Source: an uncultured SAR86 cluster bacterium (lineage in GTDB: Bacteria; Pseudomonadota; Gammaproteobacteria; Magnimaribacterales; D2472). Taken from it: a stretch of DNA of 64,000 nucleotides. Shown here in pieces: positions 13,313 to 62,935 of this stretch; position 1 is the stretch's first letter, and every line of letters begins with the position of its first letter. The notes beneath the pieces were generated by a model. The model was not told the DNA's origin, did no database searches, and worked only from the letters and a program-made list of their open reading frames with translations. The stretch lies in the NCBI GenBank assembly GCA_902586925.1, contig CACIJE010000001.1, forward strand, positions 506,001 to 570,000, read 5' to 3'. Made by a program: the position numbers and the translations under genes.

Positions 13313-13387
13313 ATAAGTTTTTAAAATATATTTTTCTTTATTAAGTTACTTCTAAATTGTTAAAATATTTATTAAGATATTATTTAG

Positions 13388-13469
13388 ATGCAAAGGGGTG
13401 GCATTTTTGCCTGAGATCTTTTGAAACTCTTTGAACCTGATCAACACAATAGTTGCGGAGGAATTGCAT
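13388..13469 (+). promoter_or_regulatory. TPP riboswitch (THI element) controlling the downstream thiamine-uptake operon
   Basis: The sequence carries the conserved TPP aptamer blocks in order: AGGGGTGGCA (13394-13403), GCCTGAGAT, CTTTGAACCTGATC (13429-13442), and the 3' GCGGAGGAA. P1 is an exact ATGCAA (13388-13393) / TTGCAT (13464-13469) pairing. P3 is minimal, GGCA-TTTT-TGCC, and CAAC/GTTG forms the other helix. The Shine-Dalgarno GGAGG (13457-13461) lies inside the conserved 3' part and the P1 3' strand touches the ATG at 13470, so ligand binding should hide the ribosome site (translational OFF switch). No terminator hairpin lies between aptamer and gene. Confidence 0.95.
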
Positions 13470-15569
13470 ATGTATGTCAGTAACAAATTTTTATTTTTAT
13501 TGCCCGTATTGTTTTCACTTATTGTCTTTTCACAAGACATTGAAGAAATAATTGTTAAAGGTGAGTATCGAGAAAAATCTATCAGTGAGGAAGATTCAAG
13601 TATTTTTATTATTCAGTCTGAAAAAATTAAGTCACAAGCTATAAAACATTTTCAGCAACTTTCGTATCTTGTACCAAATTTAAATTATGCAGCCTCAGAT
13701 TCGAGAGCAAGATATTTTCAAATACGAGGTATTGGAGAAAGATCTGGTTATCAGGGAACACCAAATTCTTCGGTTGGATTTCTTATCGATGACATTGACT
13801 ATTCCGGTCAGGGAGGCATTGCAACTTTATTTGATGTTGATCAAGTTGAAGTATTTCGTGGACCCCAAGGTTCTAGAACAGGCGCTAATGCTTTAGCAGG
13901 ATTAATTTATATAAAGACTAAAGATCCAACAGATAAATTTGAAGGAACTTCCGAACTAACTCTTGGAGATTATGGAACTCAAAACATTGGAGTTGCGTTT
14001 GGAGGACCATTAAAGAATAAAAAAATGAAATATCGATTAGTAATGAGAACTGACTATGCTGATGGATTTAGAAAAAATATTTACTTGAATAAATCAGATA
14101 CTTCAAAAAAAGATGAGCTAACTTTGCGTTACAAACTTGATTGGGAAATTGATGAAACTACAAATATAAATTTTCTTGTTTCAAAAGTTGATATGGATGA
14201 CCCAGCTGATATTTGGACAATTGATGGAAGTTTAAATACTTTATCAGATCGTCCTGGAATGGATTCACAAATAACAGACTCGATTCGAATAAAAGTAACT
14301 AAGAATTTAAATAATTTTGATATGCAAAGTTTAACAAGTTCAACAAAAACTGATGTTGTTTTCAGTTATGATGCAGATTGGGGCAATCCTGACTCACATT
14401 ATCCATATACCTATGATTATTTTTCTGAAACATTAAGAAAAAGAGATACTTTTAGTCAAGAAATTCGTTTTTTGTCAAAAAATAAGGATTTTTCTCAAAA
14501 TAATCCATTTGAATGGGTCTTTGGTTTCGATTTCAGTAAATTAGATGAATCAAATGTAACCAAAGATGATGGGATTTATGGAGATCCGTCTGATCCATTT
14601 GGTCCATATGCAAGTGAATCTTTAATTTCAAGAAATTATAAATCTGAAAATTTATCAGTTTTCGGAAATATTGATTATTTTTTAACAAATAAAATTAAAC
14701 TTGCTTTCGGTTTGAGATTGGAAAATTGGGATTCAAAATACAAAGATTCAAATAATGAATCTTTTAGTCCTTCAGATAATATGAGTGGTGGAAAAATTTC
14801 ACTAGTCAAAAAAACCAATGATGATTCAAATATTTATTTTTCAATAGCAAGAGGATATAAACAAGGTGGATTTAATTTAGGTCTTGATGCTACAGATAAC
14901 TTAGTGAAACAATCTCTTATTTACGATCCTGAATATTTAACTAATTACGAATTGGGTTTAAGTTCTTACTTAAAAGATAGCGATCTAAATTATTCACTTG
15001 TAATATTTTTCTCTGAAAGAAAAGATCAACAAGTTTTAATATCTAGACAAGTTGATCCAAGTGATCCTAATACTTTTTCATATTTAACTCAGAATGCTGC
15101 AGAGGGAGAGAACTATGGGATTGAAATTACTTCAAATTATTTATTAACAAATAATTTATATATATATGCTAATTTAGGTTTTCTTAAAACAAAGATAAAA
15201 AATTGGGAATCAAGAATTGATCTAGAAGACAGATCACAAGCTCACGCACCTGAGAGATCATATTCTGTAGGTGGAAATTTAAATTTCAAAAATAACTACT
15301 ATTTAAAATTAGATATTAATGGAAAAAGTAGTTTTTATTATTCAGATTCACATGATAATCAGTCTAAAAGCTATCAATTAACTAACTTAACTTTTGGATA
15401 TACAAATGCTAATTTTTCTGTTGATCTGTGGATAAGAAATTTGTTTAATAAATACTATTCAACAAGAGGATTTTTCTTTGGAAATGAAGCGCCAAATTTT
15501 ATTGATACTCTATATAGAAGACAAGGAGATCCTAAGCATATTGGCATATCACTTAGATATAATTTTTAA
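13470..15569 (+). CDS. TonB-dependent outer-membrane receptor, probable thiamine (B1) receptor
   Basis: The 699-residue protein starts at ATG 13470, eight bases after the riboswitch-embedded GGAGG; the open frame extends upstream into the aptamer but that part is not coding. Residues 1-22 are a signal peptide, followed by a TonB-box-like EEIIVKGEYRE. The plug domain covers about 40-160 (FQIRGIGERSG, VEVFRGPQGSRTGANALAG). The rest is a beta-barrel with alternating strands ending in the terminal phenylalanine of SLRYNF, typical of BAM-assembled porins. Substrate assignment rests on the TPP riboswitch and the PnuC-type gene behind it; on its own the sequence is a generic receptor. Confidence 0.92.
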   Translation: MYVSNKFLFLLPVLFSLIVFSQDIEEIIVKGEYREKSISEEDSSIFIIQSEKIKSQAIKHFQQLSYLVPNLNYAASDSRARYFQIRGIGERSGYQGTPNSSVGFLIDDIDYSGQGGIATLFDVDQVEVFRGPQGSRTGANALAGLIYIKTKDPTDKFEGTSELTLGDYGTQNIGVAFGGPLKNKKMKYRLVMRTDYADGFRKNIYLNKSDTSKKDELTLRYKLDWEIDETTNINFLVSKVDMDDPADIWTIDGSLNTLSDRPGMDSQITDSIRIKVTKNLNNFDMQSLTSSTKTDVVFSYDADWGNPDSHYPYTYDYFSETLRKRDTFSQEIRFLSKNKDFSQNNPFEWVFGFDFSKLDESNVTKDDGIYGDPSDPFGPYASESLISRNYKSENLSVFGNIDYFLTNKIKLAFGLRLENWDSKYKDSNNESFSPSDNMSGGKISLVKKTNDDSNIYFSIARGYKQGGFNLGLDATDNLVKQSLIYDPEYLTNYELGLSSYLKDSDLNYSLVIFFSERKDQQVLISRQVDPSDPNTFSYLTQNAAEGENYGIEITSNYLLTNNLYIYANLGFLKTKIKNWESRIDLEDRSQAHAPERSYSVGGNLNFKNNYYLKLDINGKSSFYYSDSHDNQSKSYQLTNLTFGYTNANFSVDLWIRNLFNKYYSTRGFFFGNEAPNFIDTLYRRQGDPKHIGISLRYNF

Positions 15570-15574
15570 CTTAC

Positions 15575-16144
15575 ATGTTAAATTTTATTCCTGAAATTAT
15601 TGCTGTTATGACAGCAATACTCTATTTAGTCTTAGCTGCCAAAGAAGACATAAAGTGCTGGTATGCGGCAATAATTAGTTCATCTCTATACTTTTTTATA
15701 ATGTTTGATGCTGGCCTAATAATGGAGTCAATTTTACAAATTTTTTATATTTCTATGGCCATTTATGGCTGGAATCAATGGAATAAGGTATCAAATGAAG
15801 GATGTGTAATAAGGATTAAAAAATGGAAAAAAATTAAGCATGTATATGTAATAAGTTTAGTATTGATATTGGCAATAATTTCAGGAAAAGTTCTAGAAAA
15901 ATATACAAATGCAGTATTTCCATTTTTAGATGCATTTACAACATTTGGAGCCATTATCACAACATATATGGTTGCAAAAAAGATCATTGAAAATTGGATC
16001 TATTGGTTTGTGATTGATTCAATATCTATATATCTATTTTTCTCAAGGGAGTTATATCTAACCTCATTATTATTTTTAATATATCTAATAATTATTATTT
16101 TTGGATATCGATCCTGGAATAAAAAATTACAAGATTATTCATGA
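15575..16144 (+). CDS. pnuT: PnuC-family vitamin transporter, probable thiamine transporter PnuT
   Basis: A 189-residue inner-membrane protein with about seven hydrophobic segments. The start (IPEIIAVMTAILYLVLAAKED) and the ISMAIYGWNQWNK stretch near residue 60 fit the PnuC family, which moves nucleoside-like vitamins by facilitated diffusion; members under TPP riboswitches are the thiamine-specific PnuT branch. The charged WVIDSISIYLFFSRELYLTSLLF-type ending is typical (VIDSISIYLF near 145). It starts five bases after the receptor gene and overlaps the kinase by four bases. The pairing supports a trapping mechanism: diffusion in, then phosphorylation. Confidence 0.9.
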   Translation: MLNFIPEIIAVMTAILYLVLAAKEDIKCWYAAIISSSLYFFIMFDAGLIMESILQIFYISMAIYGWNQWNKVSNEGCVIRIKKWKKIKHVYVISLVLILAIISGKVLEKYTNAVFPFLDAFTTFGAIITTYMVAKKIIENWIYWFVIDSISIYLFFSRELYLTSLLFLIYLIIIIFGYRSWNKKLQDYS

Positions 16145-16962
16145 AGAAAATAGAAACAATATTAAAAAAAGAAAATTATAATTTCAAAGTAAATGAACAG
16201 ATCAGTGATGGAGAGACTTCACAAATATTTTTAGGAGAATTTAATAACATAAAATCAATCTTTAAGTTATCAAAAAAAAATAAATTTAAATTAATCATTA
16301 ATGAATATTTTAAAAATGGAGTAATCCAAAAGATTGCTTCAAAAAATATTTCTCCAAAAGTTTTATTTCACGACTTAAAAGCAGAGTTAATTATTTATGA
16401 ATATTTTGAAAAGGATTCGTCAGATATACAATTCAATAATTTTTATCAACTTGGAAAAAAATTAAAAAAGCTGCATAAAATTACACCAAGTAAAAAAATA
16501 AAAACTTTTGAAAATCAATTTAATGTATATCTAAATGTATCATTACCGGAATTAGGCAATAAATATTTTAAAGGTGCTGTTGATCTATTTAATGAATTAA
16601 ATGTAAATAAAGAAAAACATGTTCTTTGTCATAATGATTTAGATTCTTCAAATTTGATGTTCAAGAATAATAAAATTGTTTTTATTGATTTTGAATATTT
16701 AAGTACTAACAGTAAGTATTCAGACTTATCTAAATTAATCGATTCATTAAATCTCAAAAAATTAGAAAAAGATAAATTGTTTAAAGGTTATGGTATAGAT
16801 GAAATTGATGAGAGTATTAATGTAAAAATTAAAAAGTGGAGCCTTATGAATATCTACACTGAATTAATTTGGGCTAATTATATTAATGAACACAAAAAAA
16901 ACCATTTTGATAATGATTATATAAATTTTTTAAAACAGAAGATTAAGCAACAAAGGCAATAA
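16141..16962 (+). CDS. Aminoglycoside/choline phosphotransferase-fold kinase, probable thiamine kinase
   Basis: A 273-residue small-molecule kinase. The catalytic loop HNDLDSSNLMF (about 164-174) has the H-x-D-x4-N pattern, and IVFIDFEYL (about 179-187) provides the metal-binding aspartate, as in choline kinase, aminoglycoside phosphotransferases and ThiK. The N-lobe is lysine-rich and divergent. Being translationally coupled (ATGA) to a PnuC-type gene in a TPP-riboswitch operon, it most likely phosphorylates imported thiamine and traps it, but substrate is inferred from context. Its last 20 bases overlap the next, convergent gene. Confidence 0.82.
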   Translation: MKKIETILKKENYNFKVNEQISDGETSQIFLGEFNNIKSIFKLSKKNKFKLIINEYFKNGVIQKIASKNISPKVLFHDLKAELIIYEYFEKDSSDIQFNNFYQLGKKLKKLHKITPSKKIKTFENQFNVYLNVSLPELGNKYFKGAVDLFNELNVNKEKHVLCHNDLDSSNLMFKNNKIVFIDFEYLSTNSKYSDLSKLIDSLNLKKLEKDKLFKGYGIDEIDESINVKIKKWSLMNIYTELIWANYINEHKKNHFDNDYINFLKQKIKQQRQ

Positions 16963-17383
16963 ATAAAGTTAATATCACAATACCAATTGGTATAAATTTA
17001 TCAATCTTTTCTATTAAATCTTCTTTATTTGGCATTTCTAATGAAAAGTTTGCAAATTTATTACTTTTTGTTTGTGAATTATGTTCTAAAGAACTAGTAT
17101 TATGAGTGTTTACAGGCTCTTTTTCCATGGGTACAGTATAATTTTCGTTAGAATAGTTCGTATTTTCTTCATTTTTTGAAGAATTTAGAGCTATTTGTTC
17201 AATTTCTTCCAAAATTTTATCTCTCTTTTGCCTTGCAATATGGATATCTTTTGTTTCAAGAGACTTTTTTATAAATTCTTTACCTGTAATCTTAGAAATA
17301 TCCTTAGATAAGCGCTTTTGTATGAAGTATATGTCTTTATTTTTGCCTCTTAAAACAAGGTATTTATCGTCATTTATACTCAT
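16943..17383 (-). CDS. Unknown protein: integrase-N-terminus-like domain plus C-terminal membrane tail
   Basis: A 146-residue protein I do not recognise as a known family. Residues of about 7-65 (KYLVLRGKNKDIYFIQKRL, KEFIKKSLETKDIHIARQK) look like the small N-terminal domain that precedes the core-binding domain in many tyrosine recombinases (DUF6538-like: 'Y-x-R-x-R-x-P-x-D' then 'SL-x-T-x-D-x-x-x-AR'). No catalytic domain follows. Instead there is an Asn/Ser/Glu-rich linker (about 66-125) and a C-terminal hydrophobic helix (IGIVILTLFIAFVA), so it looks tail-anchored. It may be a domesticated recombinase fragment. Three near-identical repeats lie directly upstream of its start. Confidence 0.6.
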   Translation of the reverse strand: MSINDDKYLVLRGKNKDIYFIQKRLSKDISKITGKEFIKKSLETKDIHIARQKRDKILEEIEQIALNSSKNEENTNYSNENYTVPMEKEPVNTHNTSSLEHNSQTKSNKFANFSLEMPNKEDLIEKIDKFIPIGIVILTLFIAFVA

Positions 17384-59874: not shown

Positions 59875-61611
59875 ATGAAATTAGCAGGCAATGACATATT
59901 AATTCAATCACTCATCAATGAGGGTGTTGAATATATTTTTGGCTATCCAGGGGGCGCTGCACTTCATATTTATGATGCAATTTTTAAGCAAAATAAAATG
60001 GAGCATATTTTAGTAAGGCATGAGCAAGGGGCTACTCACGCTGCTGATGGTTATGCCAGAGCTACAGGAAAACCAGGTGTTGTGTTAGTGACATCGGGAC
60101 CTGGAGCAACTAATGCAATTACAGGAATAGCTACAGCTTTTATGGATTCAATTCCTATGGTTGTAATATCAGGTCAGGTTGCAAAACATTTAATTGGAAC
60201 TGATGCATTTCAAGAAACGGATATGATTGGAATTTCTAGGCCTATTGTCAAACATAGCTTTACAGTTGAAAGTGCTGAAAATATACCAGAGATTGTAAAA
60301 CAAGCTTTTTATATTGCCACATCTGGCAGACCTGGACCAGTTGTTATAGACGTACCAAAAGATACAACTGCTCCGGATAAACTTTTTGAATTTAATTATC
60401 CTGATGAAGTAAATATTAGATCTTACAGCCCACCGATTGACCCAGAAAAAAATCAAATAGAAAGAGCTGTTGAAGCCATAATTGCAAGTGAAAAACCAGT
60501 AATCTATGCAGGTGGAGGAGCAATTAATAGTAATGCTTCTTCGGAACTTATTAAATTGAATGAAATTTTAAATTTTCCAGTTACTAACACCTTGATGGGA
60601 CTTGGAGTATATCCAGCGACAGATGAGAGATTCCTTGGAATGTTAGGAATGCATGGAACTTATCAGGCAAATATGGCAATGCATAATGCAGATTTAATTA
60701 TTGCTATTGGGGCAAGATTTGATGACAGAATCACAAACACACCAAAATTATTTGCACCAAATGCAAAAATTATTCATTTTGATGTTGATCATTCTTCTGT
60801 TTCAAAAATCATTGAAGCAAACATTGCTGTTTTTGGACAGGTTAAAAACTCCTTAAATGAAATAATTAAATTGTGTGAACTAAAAAAAGAAATGATTAAT
60901 ACAAAAAAAATTAGCTCATGGAAAAATCAAATTAAGGAATGGAAAAAATCTCATGGTTTGAATCATGACATGTATCTTGAAGATTCAGATGATTCTCCAA
61001 TAATGCCTCAAGCTGTAGTTCAACATGTTTACAACATAACAGAGGGAAAGGCATTTGTAACATCTGACGTCGGCCAACATCAGATGTTTGCTGCCCAATA
61101 TTATCATTTTGATGAACCAAGAAAATGGATAAACTCTGGTGGTTTAGGAACAATGGGCTTTGGTCTGCCATCAGCAATGGGGGTCAAACTTGCTTTTCCA
61201 AATGATGAGGTTGTCTGCATTACTGGGGAGGGTAGTATTCAAATGTGTATACAGGAGCTTTCTACTTGCACTCAATATAACTTACCTATAAAAATTATAA
61301 ATATAAATAATGAGGCTTTAGGTATGGTAAAACAATGGCAAGATATGAATTATGGTGGAAGGCACTCTGAAAGCACATATCAAAGTTCATTACCAAATTT
61401 TATTGAACTTGTTGAATCATACGGGCATGTAGGTATAAAAATTGAAAAAAACTCTGAGTTAAAAAGTCAGCTTGAGCGTGCATTTTCTCTTAAAGATAAA
61501 CTTGTATTTGTTGATGTATATGTTGATCCTGATGAACATGTTTATCCGATGCTTGTTGCACCAAATGGTAGCTTAAAAGATATGTGGCTAGATAAAGAAA
61601 CTAAAACATGA
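59875..61611 (+). CDS. ilvB: Acetolactate synthase large (catalytic) subunit
   Basis: This TPP- and FAD-dependent enzyme joins pyruvate units in branched-chain amino acid synthesis. The 578 residues include the catalytic glutamate in HILVRHEQGATHAADGYARA in part, the family GYPGGAALHIYDA, GPGATNAITGIATAFMD, and the TPP-phosphate motif VCITGEGSIQMCIQEL...NNEALGMVKQWQ. Four-base overlap with ilvH. TPP dependence links this to the thiamine uptake operon at 13.4 kb. Confidence 0.96.
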   Translation: MKLAGNDILIQSLINEGVEYIFGYPGGAALHIYDAIFKQNKMEHILVRHEQGATHAADGYARATGKPGVVLVTSGPGATNAITGIATAFMDSIPMVVISGQVAKHLIGTDAFQETDMIGISRPIVKHSFTVESAENIPEIVKQAFYIATSGRPGPVVIDVPKDTTAPDKLFEFNYPDEVNIRSYSPPIDPEKNQIERAVEAIIASEKPVIYAGGGAINSNASSELIKLNEILNFPVTNTLMGLGVYPATDERFLGMLGMHGTYQANMAMHNADLIIAIGARFDDRITNTPKLFAPNAKIIHFDVDHSSVSKIIEANIAVFGQVKNSLNEIIKLCELKKEMINTKKISSWKNQIKEWKKSHGLNHDMYLEDSDDSPIMPQAVVQHVYNITEGKAFVTSDVGQHQMFAAQYYHFDEPRKWINSGGLGTMGFGLPSAMGVKLAFPNDEVVCITGEGSIQMCIQELSTCTQYNLPIKIININNEALGMVKQWQDMNYGGRHSESTYQSSLPNFIELVESYGHVGIKIEKNSELKSQLERAFSLKDKLVFVDVYVDPDEHVYPMLVAPNGSLKDMWLDKETKT

Positions 61612-61895
61612 TTCAAAGGAAAGTATCTATTATTCTTGAGAATAAACCAGGAGCCTTAGTAAGAGTAGTTGGTTTGTTTCACCAAAGAGGTTACAACATA
61701 GAGAGCTTACACGTTGATCCAGTAAATGATCTTACAAAATATAAATATGTCGAGAAAAATTTAAATATAAAATTAAAAGAAGGTGAAGTTTCACATCTTA
61801 TAATATCCACAACTGTTAATGATAATTTGCTAAGGCAAATTTTGAGGCAAATAAATAAGTTGATAGATGTTCTTATTGCTGAGGAAGTTAAATGA
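61608..61895 (+). CDS. ilvH: Acetolactate synthase small (regulatory) subunit, ACT domain only
   Basis: A 95-residue ACT-domain subunit for valine feedback. [31 protein letters not shown] is the family start, shown in part ([20 protein letters not shown]). It is far shorter than E. coli IlvH (about 163) and near IlvN (96). The segment after [10 protein letters not shown] does not keep the usual S-R-M-T, instead reading [20 protein letters not shown], and the C-domain is missing. Overlaps ilvB and ilvC by four bases each. Confidence 0.88.
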
Positions 61896-62935
61896 AAATT
61901 TTTTATGATGATGATGCAAATATTGAAATAATCCAAAAAATGCAAGTAACTATAATTGGTTACGGATCACAGGGTCATGCTCATGCTAATAATTTAAGCA
62001 ACTCAGGAGTTGATGTGACCATTGGTTTAAGGACAGGTTCATCCTCTTGGGAAAAGGCAACAGATGCTGGACTTAAAGTGAAAGCAGTTGAAGAAGCTGT
62101 AACAAATTCGGACTTAGTAATGATTCTAGCTCCAGACGAATTTCAAAAAGATATTTATGAAAAAAGTATCAAGCCAAATTTAAAAACTGATGCAATCTTG
62201 GCATTTGCTCATGGATTTAATATTCATTTCAAAAAGATTATTCCTGATTTATCAAATAGCGTTATTATGATTGCGCCAAAAGGCCCTGGTCATACAGTTA
62301 GAAGCACATATTTGAAAGGTGGCGGAGTTCCATCATTAATTGCTGTTTATCAAGATTCAAATATAGAGAATAATATATCTGCAAAAGAAATTGCTCTGTC
62401 TTATGCAAAAGCTAATGGCGGAACAAAAGCGGGTGTTCTTGAAACAACATTTAAAGAAGAGACTGAGACTGATTTATTTGGTGAACAAGCTGTATTATGT
62501 GGTGGTATAACTGCACTTATAAAAGCTGGTTATGAAACATTGGTCGAAGCAGGCTACAGTCCAGAAATGGCTTATTTTGAATGTCTTCATGAAACTAAAC
62601 TAATTACTGATTTAATACAAGAAGGTGGTATAGCAAACATGCATTATTCAATTTCTAATACTGCAGAATATGGGGACTATTTAAGTGGACCAAAAATAAT
62701 TACTGATAAAACTAAAGAGACAATGAAAGAAATTCTTAATAATATTCAATCAGGTAATTTTGCAAATGAATTTCTCGATGATTGCAGACAAAGCAACGAT
62801 GGTACAGGCGGACCTTTTATGAAATCTAATAGAGAGTCTACTGCAAATCATCCAATAGAAAAGGTTGGAAATGAGCTCAGATCAAGGATGAAATTCTTAA
62901 ATTCTGAGAAACTTGTAGATAAAGAAAAAAATTAA
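61892..62935 (+). CDS. ilvC: Ketol-acid reductoisomerase (class I)
   Basis: IlvC isomerises and reduces acetolactate. The 347 residues are class I length. The cofactor loop is [18 protein letters not shown], followed by [13 protein letters not shown], where Arg and Ser suit NADPH. The [18 protein letters not shown] and [17 protein letters not shown] segments give the metal site. It completes ilvB-ilvH-ilvC; the rRNA promoter starts 11 bases later. Confidence 0.97.

Follow-up and report, generated by a model that had tools for sequence, protein, structure and literature searches.

The closest described systems are the OMthi-PnuT-Tnr3 genes of gut Bacteroidetes, which form a single operon in most of the genomes considered in passages of PMC5613172; according to the same passages, a biosynthesis-less Bacteroides thetaiotaomicron needs about ten times more thiamine (vitamin B1) after deletion of OMthi or PnuT. 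SAR86 is among the most abundant surface-ocean bacterial groups and has many TonB-dependent transporters (passages of PMC11582366, where thiamine is named once, as a medium supplement). It has been called auxotrophic, and omr1 with a nearby thiamine diphosphate (TDP) riboswitch was reported in two SAR86 clusters, seawater B1 being generally picomolar (passages of PMC10881298). Passages of PMC12442306 and PMC10470507 treat omr1 as a marker of B1 uptake, SAR86 being unmentioned in them, and those of PMC2258182 define direct translation attenuation by thiamine pyrophosphate (TPP) riboswitches. Here, we focused on an operon preceded by a TPP-family aptamer in a 64,000-nucleotide stretch of a SAR86 genome (hereafter the window, i.e. 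C1:506001-570000 of a genome of 1.18 Mb in nine contigs, 94.6 % complete).

We predict that this operon imports thiamine and likely traps it as thiamine monophosphate (TMP), to be used by a ThiL whose gene lies outside the operon; ThiC, ThiE and ThiG were not found in this genome. We hold this reading to be probable, its functional steps being those that we infer. As a B1 import operon the locus is well supported and ordinary in kind, and such an operon type was reportedly predicted by a comparative-genomics study in 2002. New here are a different kinase alongside ThiL, an aptamer that in 41 of 42 loci doubles as ribosome-binding site, and the mutual exclusion of switch and ThiG in 75 genomes. 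Among the matches listed in the open-access literature (subscription papers falling mostly outside this scope), we recognised none that deals with a PnuT-kinase operon in SAR86, with the way it is translated or with the either/or pattern. The omr1 loci of PMC10881298 concern the same kind of receptor in the same group; 'pnuT' and 'thiL' are absent from the main text of that paper, and the passages considered here contain neither the operon kinase nor the translation mechanism nor the either/or pattern.

Gene content of the operon and of its genome

The operon comprises the following features, all on the forward strand:

13384..13480, + strand: TPP riboswitch aptamer (RF00059), full-length (model 1-105), 57.0 bits for a gathering score of 54.3, E 1.6e-8
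13470..15569, + strand: TonB-dependent receptor (699 amino acids), Omr1/OMthi-like by position, predicted outer-membrane thiamine importer (PF00593, 88.6 bits; PF07715, 44.4 bits)
15575..16144, + strand: PnuC-family transporter (189 amino acids), predicted PnuT, i.e. inner-membrane thiamine carrier (PF04973, 165.5 bits)
16141..16962, + strand: choline-kinase/APH-type small-molecule kinase (273 amino acids), predicted thiamine kinase (thiamine to TMP), from Pfam, NCBIfam and a conserved motif

Receptor and carrier genes are separated by five bases, and carrier and kinase genes overlap by four (ATGA). An earlier note on this DNA had described exactly this layout, with the same gap and overlap, and open reading frame (ORF) coordinates, the covariance model and Pfam all agree with it. 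The locus shares with the OMthi-PnuT-Tnr3 operon a TPP switch, a receptor of the TonB-dependent kind, PnuT and an enzyme that phosphorylates thiamine, as predicted for the SAR86 kinase (passages of PMC5613172). The TPP element is followed by the receptor and the PnuC-family carrier as in that type, whereas the thiamin pyrophosphokinase (PF04263) used there is missing: the third SAR86 gene is of the choline-kinase/APH type, and ThiL is encoded elsewhere. In addition, the window comes from a gammaproteobacterial genome in which ThiC, ThiE and ThiG are missing, whereas the synthesis operon is present in B. thetaiotaomicron as well (passages of PMC5613172).

Searches for ThiC, ThiE and ThiG gave no match in the window genome, and its 17 congeners had none above cut-off. 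The auxotrophy that the earlier note had considered possible is thereby backed genome-wide; it had proposed searching the genome for thiC, thiE, thiG and thiL among others, and the first three were not found while ThiL was. The genome has the gene content of a thiamine auxotroph, and a growth requirement is predicted. ThiL exceeded the cut-off in 29 of 30 genomes (the window genome and 29 relatives), the window genome having one copy outside the operon. The thiamin pyrophosphokinase domain was detected in none of these 30 genomes by a search that does detect the Bacteroides control, and this enzyme was rejected as the trap. With ThiL present and both ThiE and thiamin pyrophosphokinase missing, TMP must come from imported thiamine, so that a thiamine kinase is demanded; since a ThiK-type kinase stops at TMP, ThiL is also required to reach TPP. 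The operon names one candidate gene for the missing thiamine kinase.

TPP element and ThiG across the SAR86 order

The order was surveyed in 75 genomes of at least 85 % completeness, the TPP-element search being run with stricter filters. A TPP element was present in 38 genomes (34 over gathering score) and ThiG in 36 (34 full, 2 partial); none had both and one had neither (G081). Among the 40 genomes at least 90 % complete, the element occurred in 18 and ThiG in the 22 others. ThiG was counted in G030 on a partial match (162.7 bits) beginning at base 1 of a contig, and in G078 on a 27.3-bit, 32-residue PF05690 match in a 39-amino-acid open frame that we judged to be a ThiG fragment; without the latter, the counts are 38 with a TPP element, 35 with ThiG, none with both and two with neither. 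Conversely, a 25-bit, 95-residue PF05690 match in a 354-amino-acid frame of G059 (family cut-off 23) was excluded, as were the other PF05690 matches below 30 bits, some of which pass the cut-off together with neighbours, in genomes having a full ThiG. The PnuC-family carrier was found in 35 of the 38 switch genomes versus none of the 37 others. In the three switch genomes without it (G020, G052, G054), the element is close to a contig end (about 1 kb, up to about 1.5 kb) or on a contig of 4-5 kb.

Both states, i.e. switch or ThiG, occur inside family f1 (between genera) and inside single genera (g17 in f2, g4 in f4). Fisher's exact test on the switch/ThiG table gave 1e-20; as the genomes are related, the within-family splits are better evidence than this figure, the independence of the pattern resting on the family and genus labels. 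At seven sampled ThiC/ThiE/ThiG loci of ThiG genomes (L037, L038, L042-L046), no TPP element was detected even at E up to 1, and synthesis in these sampled genomes looks unswitched.

On balance, we lean towards a wider scenario for the order, in which the import operon and thiazole synthesis would be mutually exclusive modules swapped several times (in f1, f2, f4 and single genera). The switch would survive only on the import operon, thiazole makers having no detectable TPP switch, and the import module would have recruited a choline-kinase-type enzyme trapping thiamine as TMP for ThiL. Its leader would be the aptamer alone, with the conserved core as ribosome-binding site and a closing stem touching or containing the start codon. 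With a marker of this kind, readable from the genome, in which the TPP switch stands for import and ThiG for thiazole synthesis, surveys could more easily class SAR86 populations as B1 consumers or possible producers.

Two f4 genomes, G023 and G026, carry ThiE and ThiG while ThiC and the TPP element are both missing, which amounts to a pyrimidine-auxotroph pattern within SAR86. Despite its ThiE and ThiG, G026 has no ThiL over cut-off.

The aptamer as probable ribosome-binding site

By its covariance-model score the window aptamer belongs to RF00059, and it is the only TPP element found in its genome; such aptamers recur in 20 of the 30 genomes mentioned above, as in the 38 of 75 of the whole order. 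The parts bearing on translation are:

13389..13393, + strand: P1 stem, 5' strand (TGCAA), pairing with 13464-13468
13436..13438, + strand: P4, 5' strand (CCT), pairing with AGG of the Shine-Dalgarno sequence, invariant in 42 of 42 aptamers
13457..13462, + strand: Shine-Dalgarno sequence (GGAGGA) within the conserved 3' purine motif of the aptamer, AGG at 13459-13461 being the P4 3' strand
13464..13468, + strand: P1 stem, 3' strand (TTGCA), leaving one base before the start codon

Of the aptamers of 47 distinct genomes, 42 (41 distinct rows) were compared, leaving out those of G053, G067, G082, G084 and G086. Paired cells amounted to 96.4 % over this set, falling to 33-56 % when the partner was slid by 1-3 columns, and 98.5 % of P1 cells pair over the 41 distinct aptamers. 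Two-sided changes were seen in two of the five P1 pairs, on three rows that include the odd L082, and in two pairs of P5. The recurrence and pairing of the aptamer are more than chance.

GGAGG lies inside the aptamer in all 42 loci. The start ATG follows it by 6 nt in 24 loci, its A being the last P1 base, and by 8 nt in 17, all of genus g1; the exception is G079 (L082), where the best ATG of the receptor stands one base after GGAGG and P1 is altered. In the window, the receptor likely starts at ATG 13470, 8 nt past GGAGG, giving the 699 amino acids listed above. The mechanical ORF start, TTG 13431, was rejected: it lies inside the aptamer and, by eye, has no clear Shine-Dalgarno sequence ahead of it. 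No terminator-like site was found between the aptamer and the ATG; the single site found, at 15598-15619 inside pnuT, is about what chance would give (expectation 0.9), and transcription termination was discarded.

The ribosome-binding site thus sits in the purine-rich 3' region, with ATG 13470 two bases past the last P1 base (13468). With GGAGG, the Shine-Dalgarno sequence, belonging to the aptamer itself, TPP would directly block translation, and the layout fits direct translation attenuation, a known class, both TPP binding and its effect on expression being predicted. As in that class, described in passages of PMC2258182, the ribosome-binding site is buried in the conserved aptamer core and the start codon is at most 15 nt from the aptamer end; unlike there, the arrangement occurs in a gammaproteobacterial order, ahead of an outer-membrane receptor.

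At low TPP, the aptamer would be open, and the ribosome would bind GGAGG inside it and start at ATG 13470. The TonB-powered receptor would then collect scarce thiamine at the outer membrane, PnuT would equilibrate it across the inner membrane, and the kinase would convert it to TMP, which would not exit via PnuT and from which ThiL would make TPP. PnuT reportedly works by facilitated diffusion, going by the title of a cited study. At high TPP, the ligand would bind the aptamer and fix P1 and P4, hiding the Shine-Dalgarno sequence (AGG with CCT, in P4) and clamping the start-codon side of P1. Through the five-base gap and the ATGA overlap, translation of both downstream genes would be coupled to that of the receptor. 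Such a switch would be minimal, a single conserved motif acting both as part of the ligand fold and as ribosome-binding site.

Assignment of carrier, kinase and receptor

Above-cut-off Pfam matches place the kinase among Choline_kinase (PF01633), APH (PF01636) and EcKL proteins. HND....N (164-171) and D183 are conserved without exception in the 17 operon kinases aligned (alignment A2: the window and 16 loci, leaving out the near-duplicates L004, L007, L009 and L014 and the frameshifted L002). We take HxDxxxxN with a later Asp to be the catalytic motif of the APH/choline-kinase superfamily, to which cut-offs and motif together assign the protein. ThiK (YcfN; TIGR02721) is its best-scoring NCBIfam model, covering most of its length, and the operon kinase is the only match to this model in the window genome at E up to 0.001. 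The carrier exceeds by far the gathering score of PF04973 (NMN_transporter; 165.5 versus 27.3 bits), and the receptor has both TonB_dep_Rec_b-barrel and Plug domains above cut-off in Pfam.

Several observations weigh against the proposed import and trapping of thiamine. The kinase scores 45.7 bits with TIGR02721, whose cut-off is 299.45, and almost as much with GntI (44.9), so that a classification as ThiK is not warranted; the solved structures closest to it in fold are choline kinases such as LicA (the alignment of the structural model, A4, held 36 sequences, with 23 of the 115 homologues found), and one of its database relatives is named LicA choline kinase. The carrier passes the NCBIfam cut-off for PnuC, the nicotinamide riboside transporter (91.2 versus 42.45 bits), and its thiamine specificity therefore rests on context. 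Six f2 switch genomes keep receptor and PnuT with no kinase gene after pnuT; the trap is therefore not universal, and another enzyme must phosphorylate thiamine there. Regarding the genome, it is 94.6 % complete, the thiamine synthesis and phosphorylation genes searched for in it being ThiC, ThiE, ThiG, ThiL, thiamin pyrophosphokinase and ThiK. As for regulation, AGG is already paired when folding is unconstrained, with a probability of 0.57-0.60 and also in the minimum-energy structure, and the 1.0 obtained for the aptamer fold was imposed by the constraint, so that folding leaves a simple open-or-closed secondary-structure switch unsupported. Transcripts of the B. thetaiotaomicron transport operons changed little with thiamine (passages of PMC5613172), which is neutral on translational control here. 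The complete uptake-and-trap route of the earlier note hence stands as a TPP-switch operon with receptor, PnuT-type carrier and kinase; it has to be qualified in that TPP also requires ThiL from elsewhere, and by the kinase score, the f2 genomes and the PnuC cut-off just given.

The low ThiK score could mean that the kinase is a choline/ethanolamine kinase (LicA-like) or another APH-type enzyme, receptor and PnuT importing thiamine that some other enzyme phosphorylates. We consider this unlikely, as the gene overlaps pnuT by four bases under the only TPP element of the genome, and as all 28 genomes with a match to the kinase query (of 75 searched) are among the 38 carrying the element. Moreover, the sole ThiK-model match of the window genome is found where ThiL without ThiE or thiamin pyrophosphokinase demands a thiamine kinase. 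E. coli ThiK is itself an APH-superfamily enzyme, and the fold therefore cannot separate ThiK from choline kinase. Far less probable still is that the carrier transports nicotinamide riboside together with a nucleoside-type kinase, the TPP switch concerning the receptor only. The PnuC equivalog cut-off speaks for it, as does the nearest solved structure, PnuC 4qtn (E 1.5e-7; 7-helix model, TM 0.77); against it, Bacteroidota relatives of the carrier (L034, L036) adjoin a PF13521 AAA_28 protein, which we take to be NadR-type, and not a choline-kinase-like enzyme (considered as PnuT, these two were left unassigned for this neighbour), and the SAR86 carrier keeps to switch genomes in the proportions given above. 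The receptor might also import a compound related to thiamine, be it TMP, TPP or a precursor, given that the TPP switch alone sets the substrate class and that its sequence matches name no thiamine ligand, its seven PDB relatives being named siderophore, pesticin or metallophore receptors. This is improbable in our opinion, since a cell without ThiE cannot join precursors and the operon kinase would be needless for TMP or TPP. Import of thiamine itself, followed by its phosphorylation by the operon kinase, is the reading that we retain.

Two of the 28 kinase matches are atypical: that of G020 is partial, on a contig other than that of the switch, and that of G079 is weak and elsewhere in the genome. 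Eight genomes have switch and PnuT without a kinase match. The operon reaches the contig end in G010 and G060, and G084 has, on direct reading, a 252-amino-acid kinase-like ORF with an HNDLNPMN motif. The other five (G021, G024, G027, G080, G082) belong to f2. The gene 3' of pnuT is a convergent peroxidase in G021, G024, G027 and G080 (L102, L025, L104, L029), a cytidylyltransferase-like protein in G082 (L103) and an alpha/beta hydrolase in G079 (L101). Unlinked APH proteins were considered as ThiK in f2, namely those of 327 residues present in all but one of the six switch genomes and those of 297-305 residues in G021, G024 and G082, and were rejected (33-42 bits versus 299); the 327-residue copy in L092 adjoins an acyl-CoA dehydrogenase, and the 297-residue copy in L089 scores higher with an APH(3') model. 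The match of G079 is a relative of homoserine kinases.

Remaining features of the window were as follows:

13542..13562, + strand: EEIIVKG stretch of the receptor, read from the translation (EEIVVKG in the relative L101)
16943-17383, convergent: 146-amino-acid ORF with a weak DUF6538 match (25.4 versus 27 bits), overlapping the kinase 3' end by 20 bases

EEIIVKG is presumably TonB-box-like, after what we take to be a signal-peptide-like N terminus. A prolyl oligopeptidase gene lies upstream of the operon (Pfam scan). In L034, from a Bacteroidota single-cell genome, a TPP element at L034:6136-6226, whose 48.6 bits fall short of the gathering score, is located about 2.7 kb downstream of the pnuC-like gene with the PF13521 neighbour. 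Finally, the window encodes a TPP consumer at 59875-61611, a TPP-dependent enzyme (PF02775/PF00205/PF02776) that is of acetolactate-synthase type judging by its neighbour, the adjoining ketol-acid reductoisomerase gene (61892-62935).

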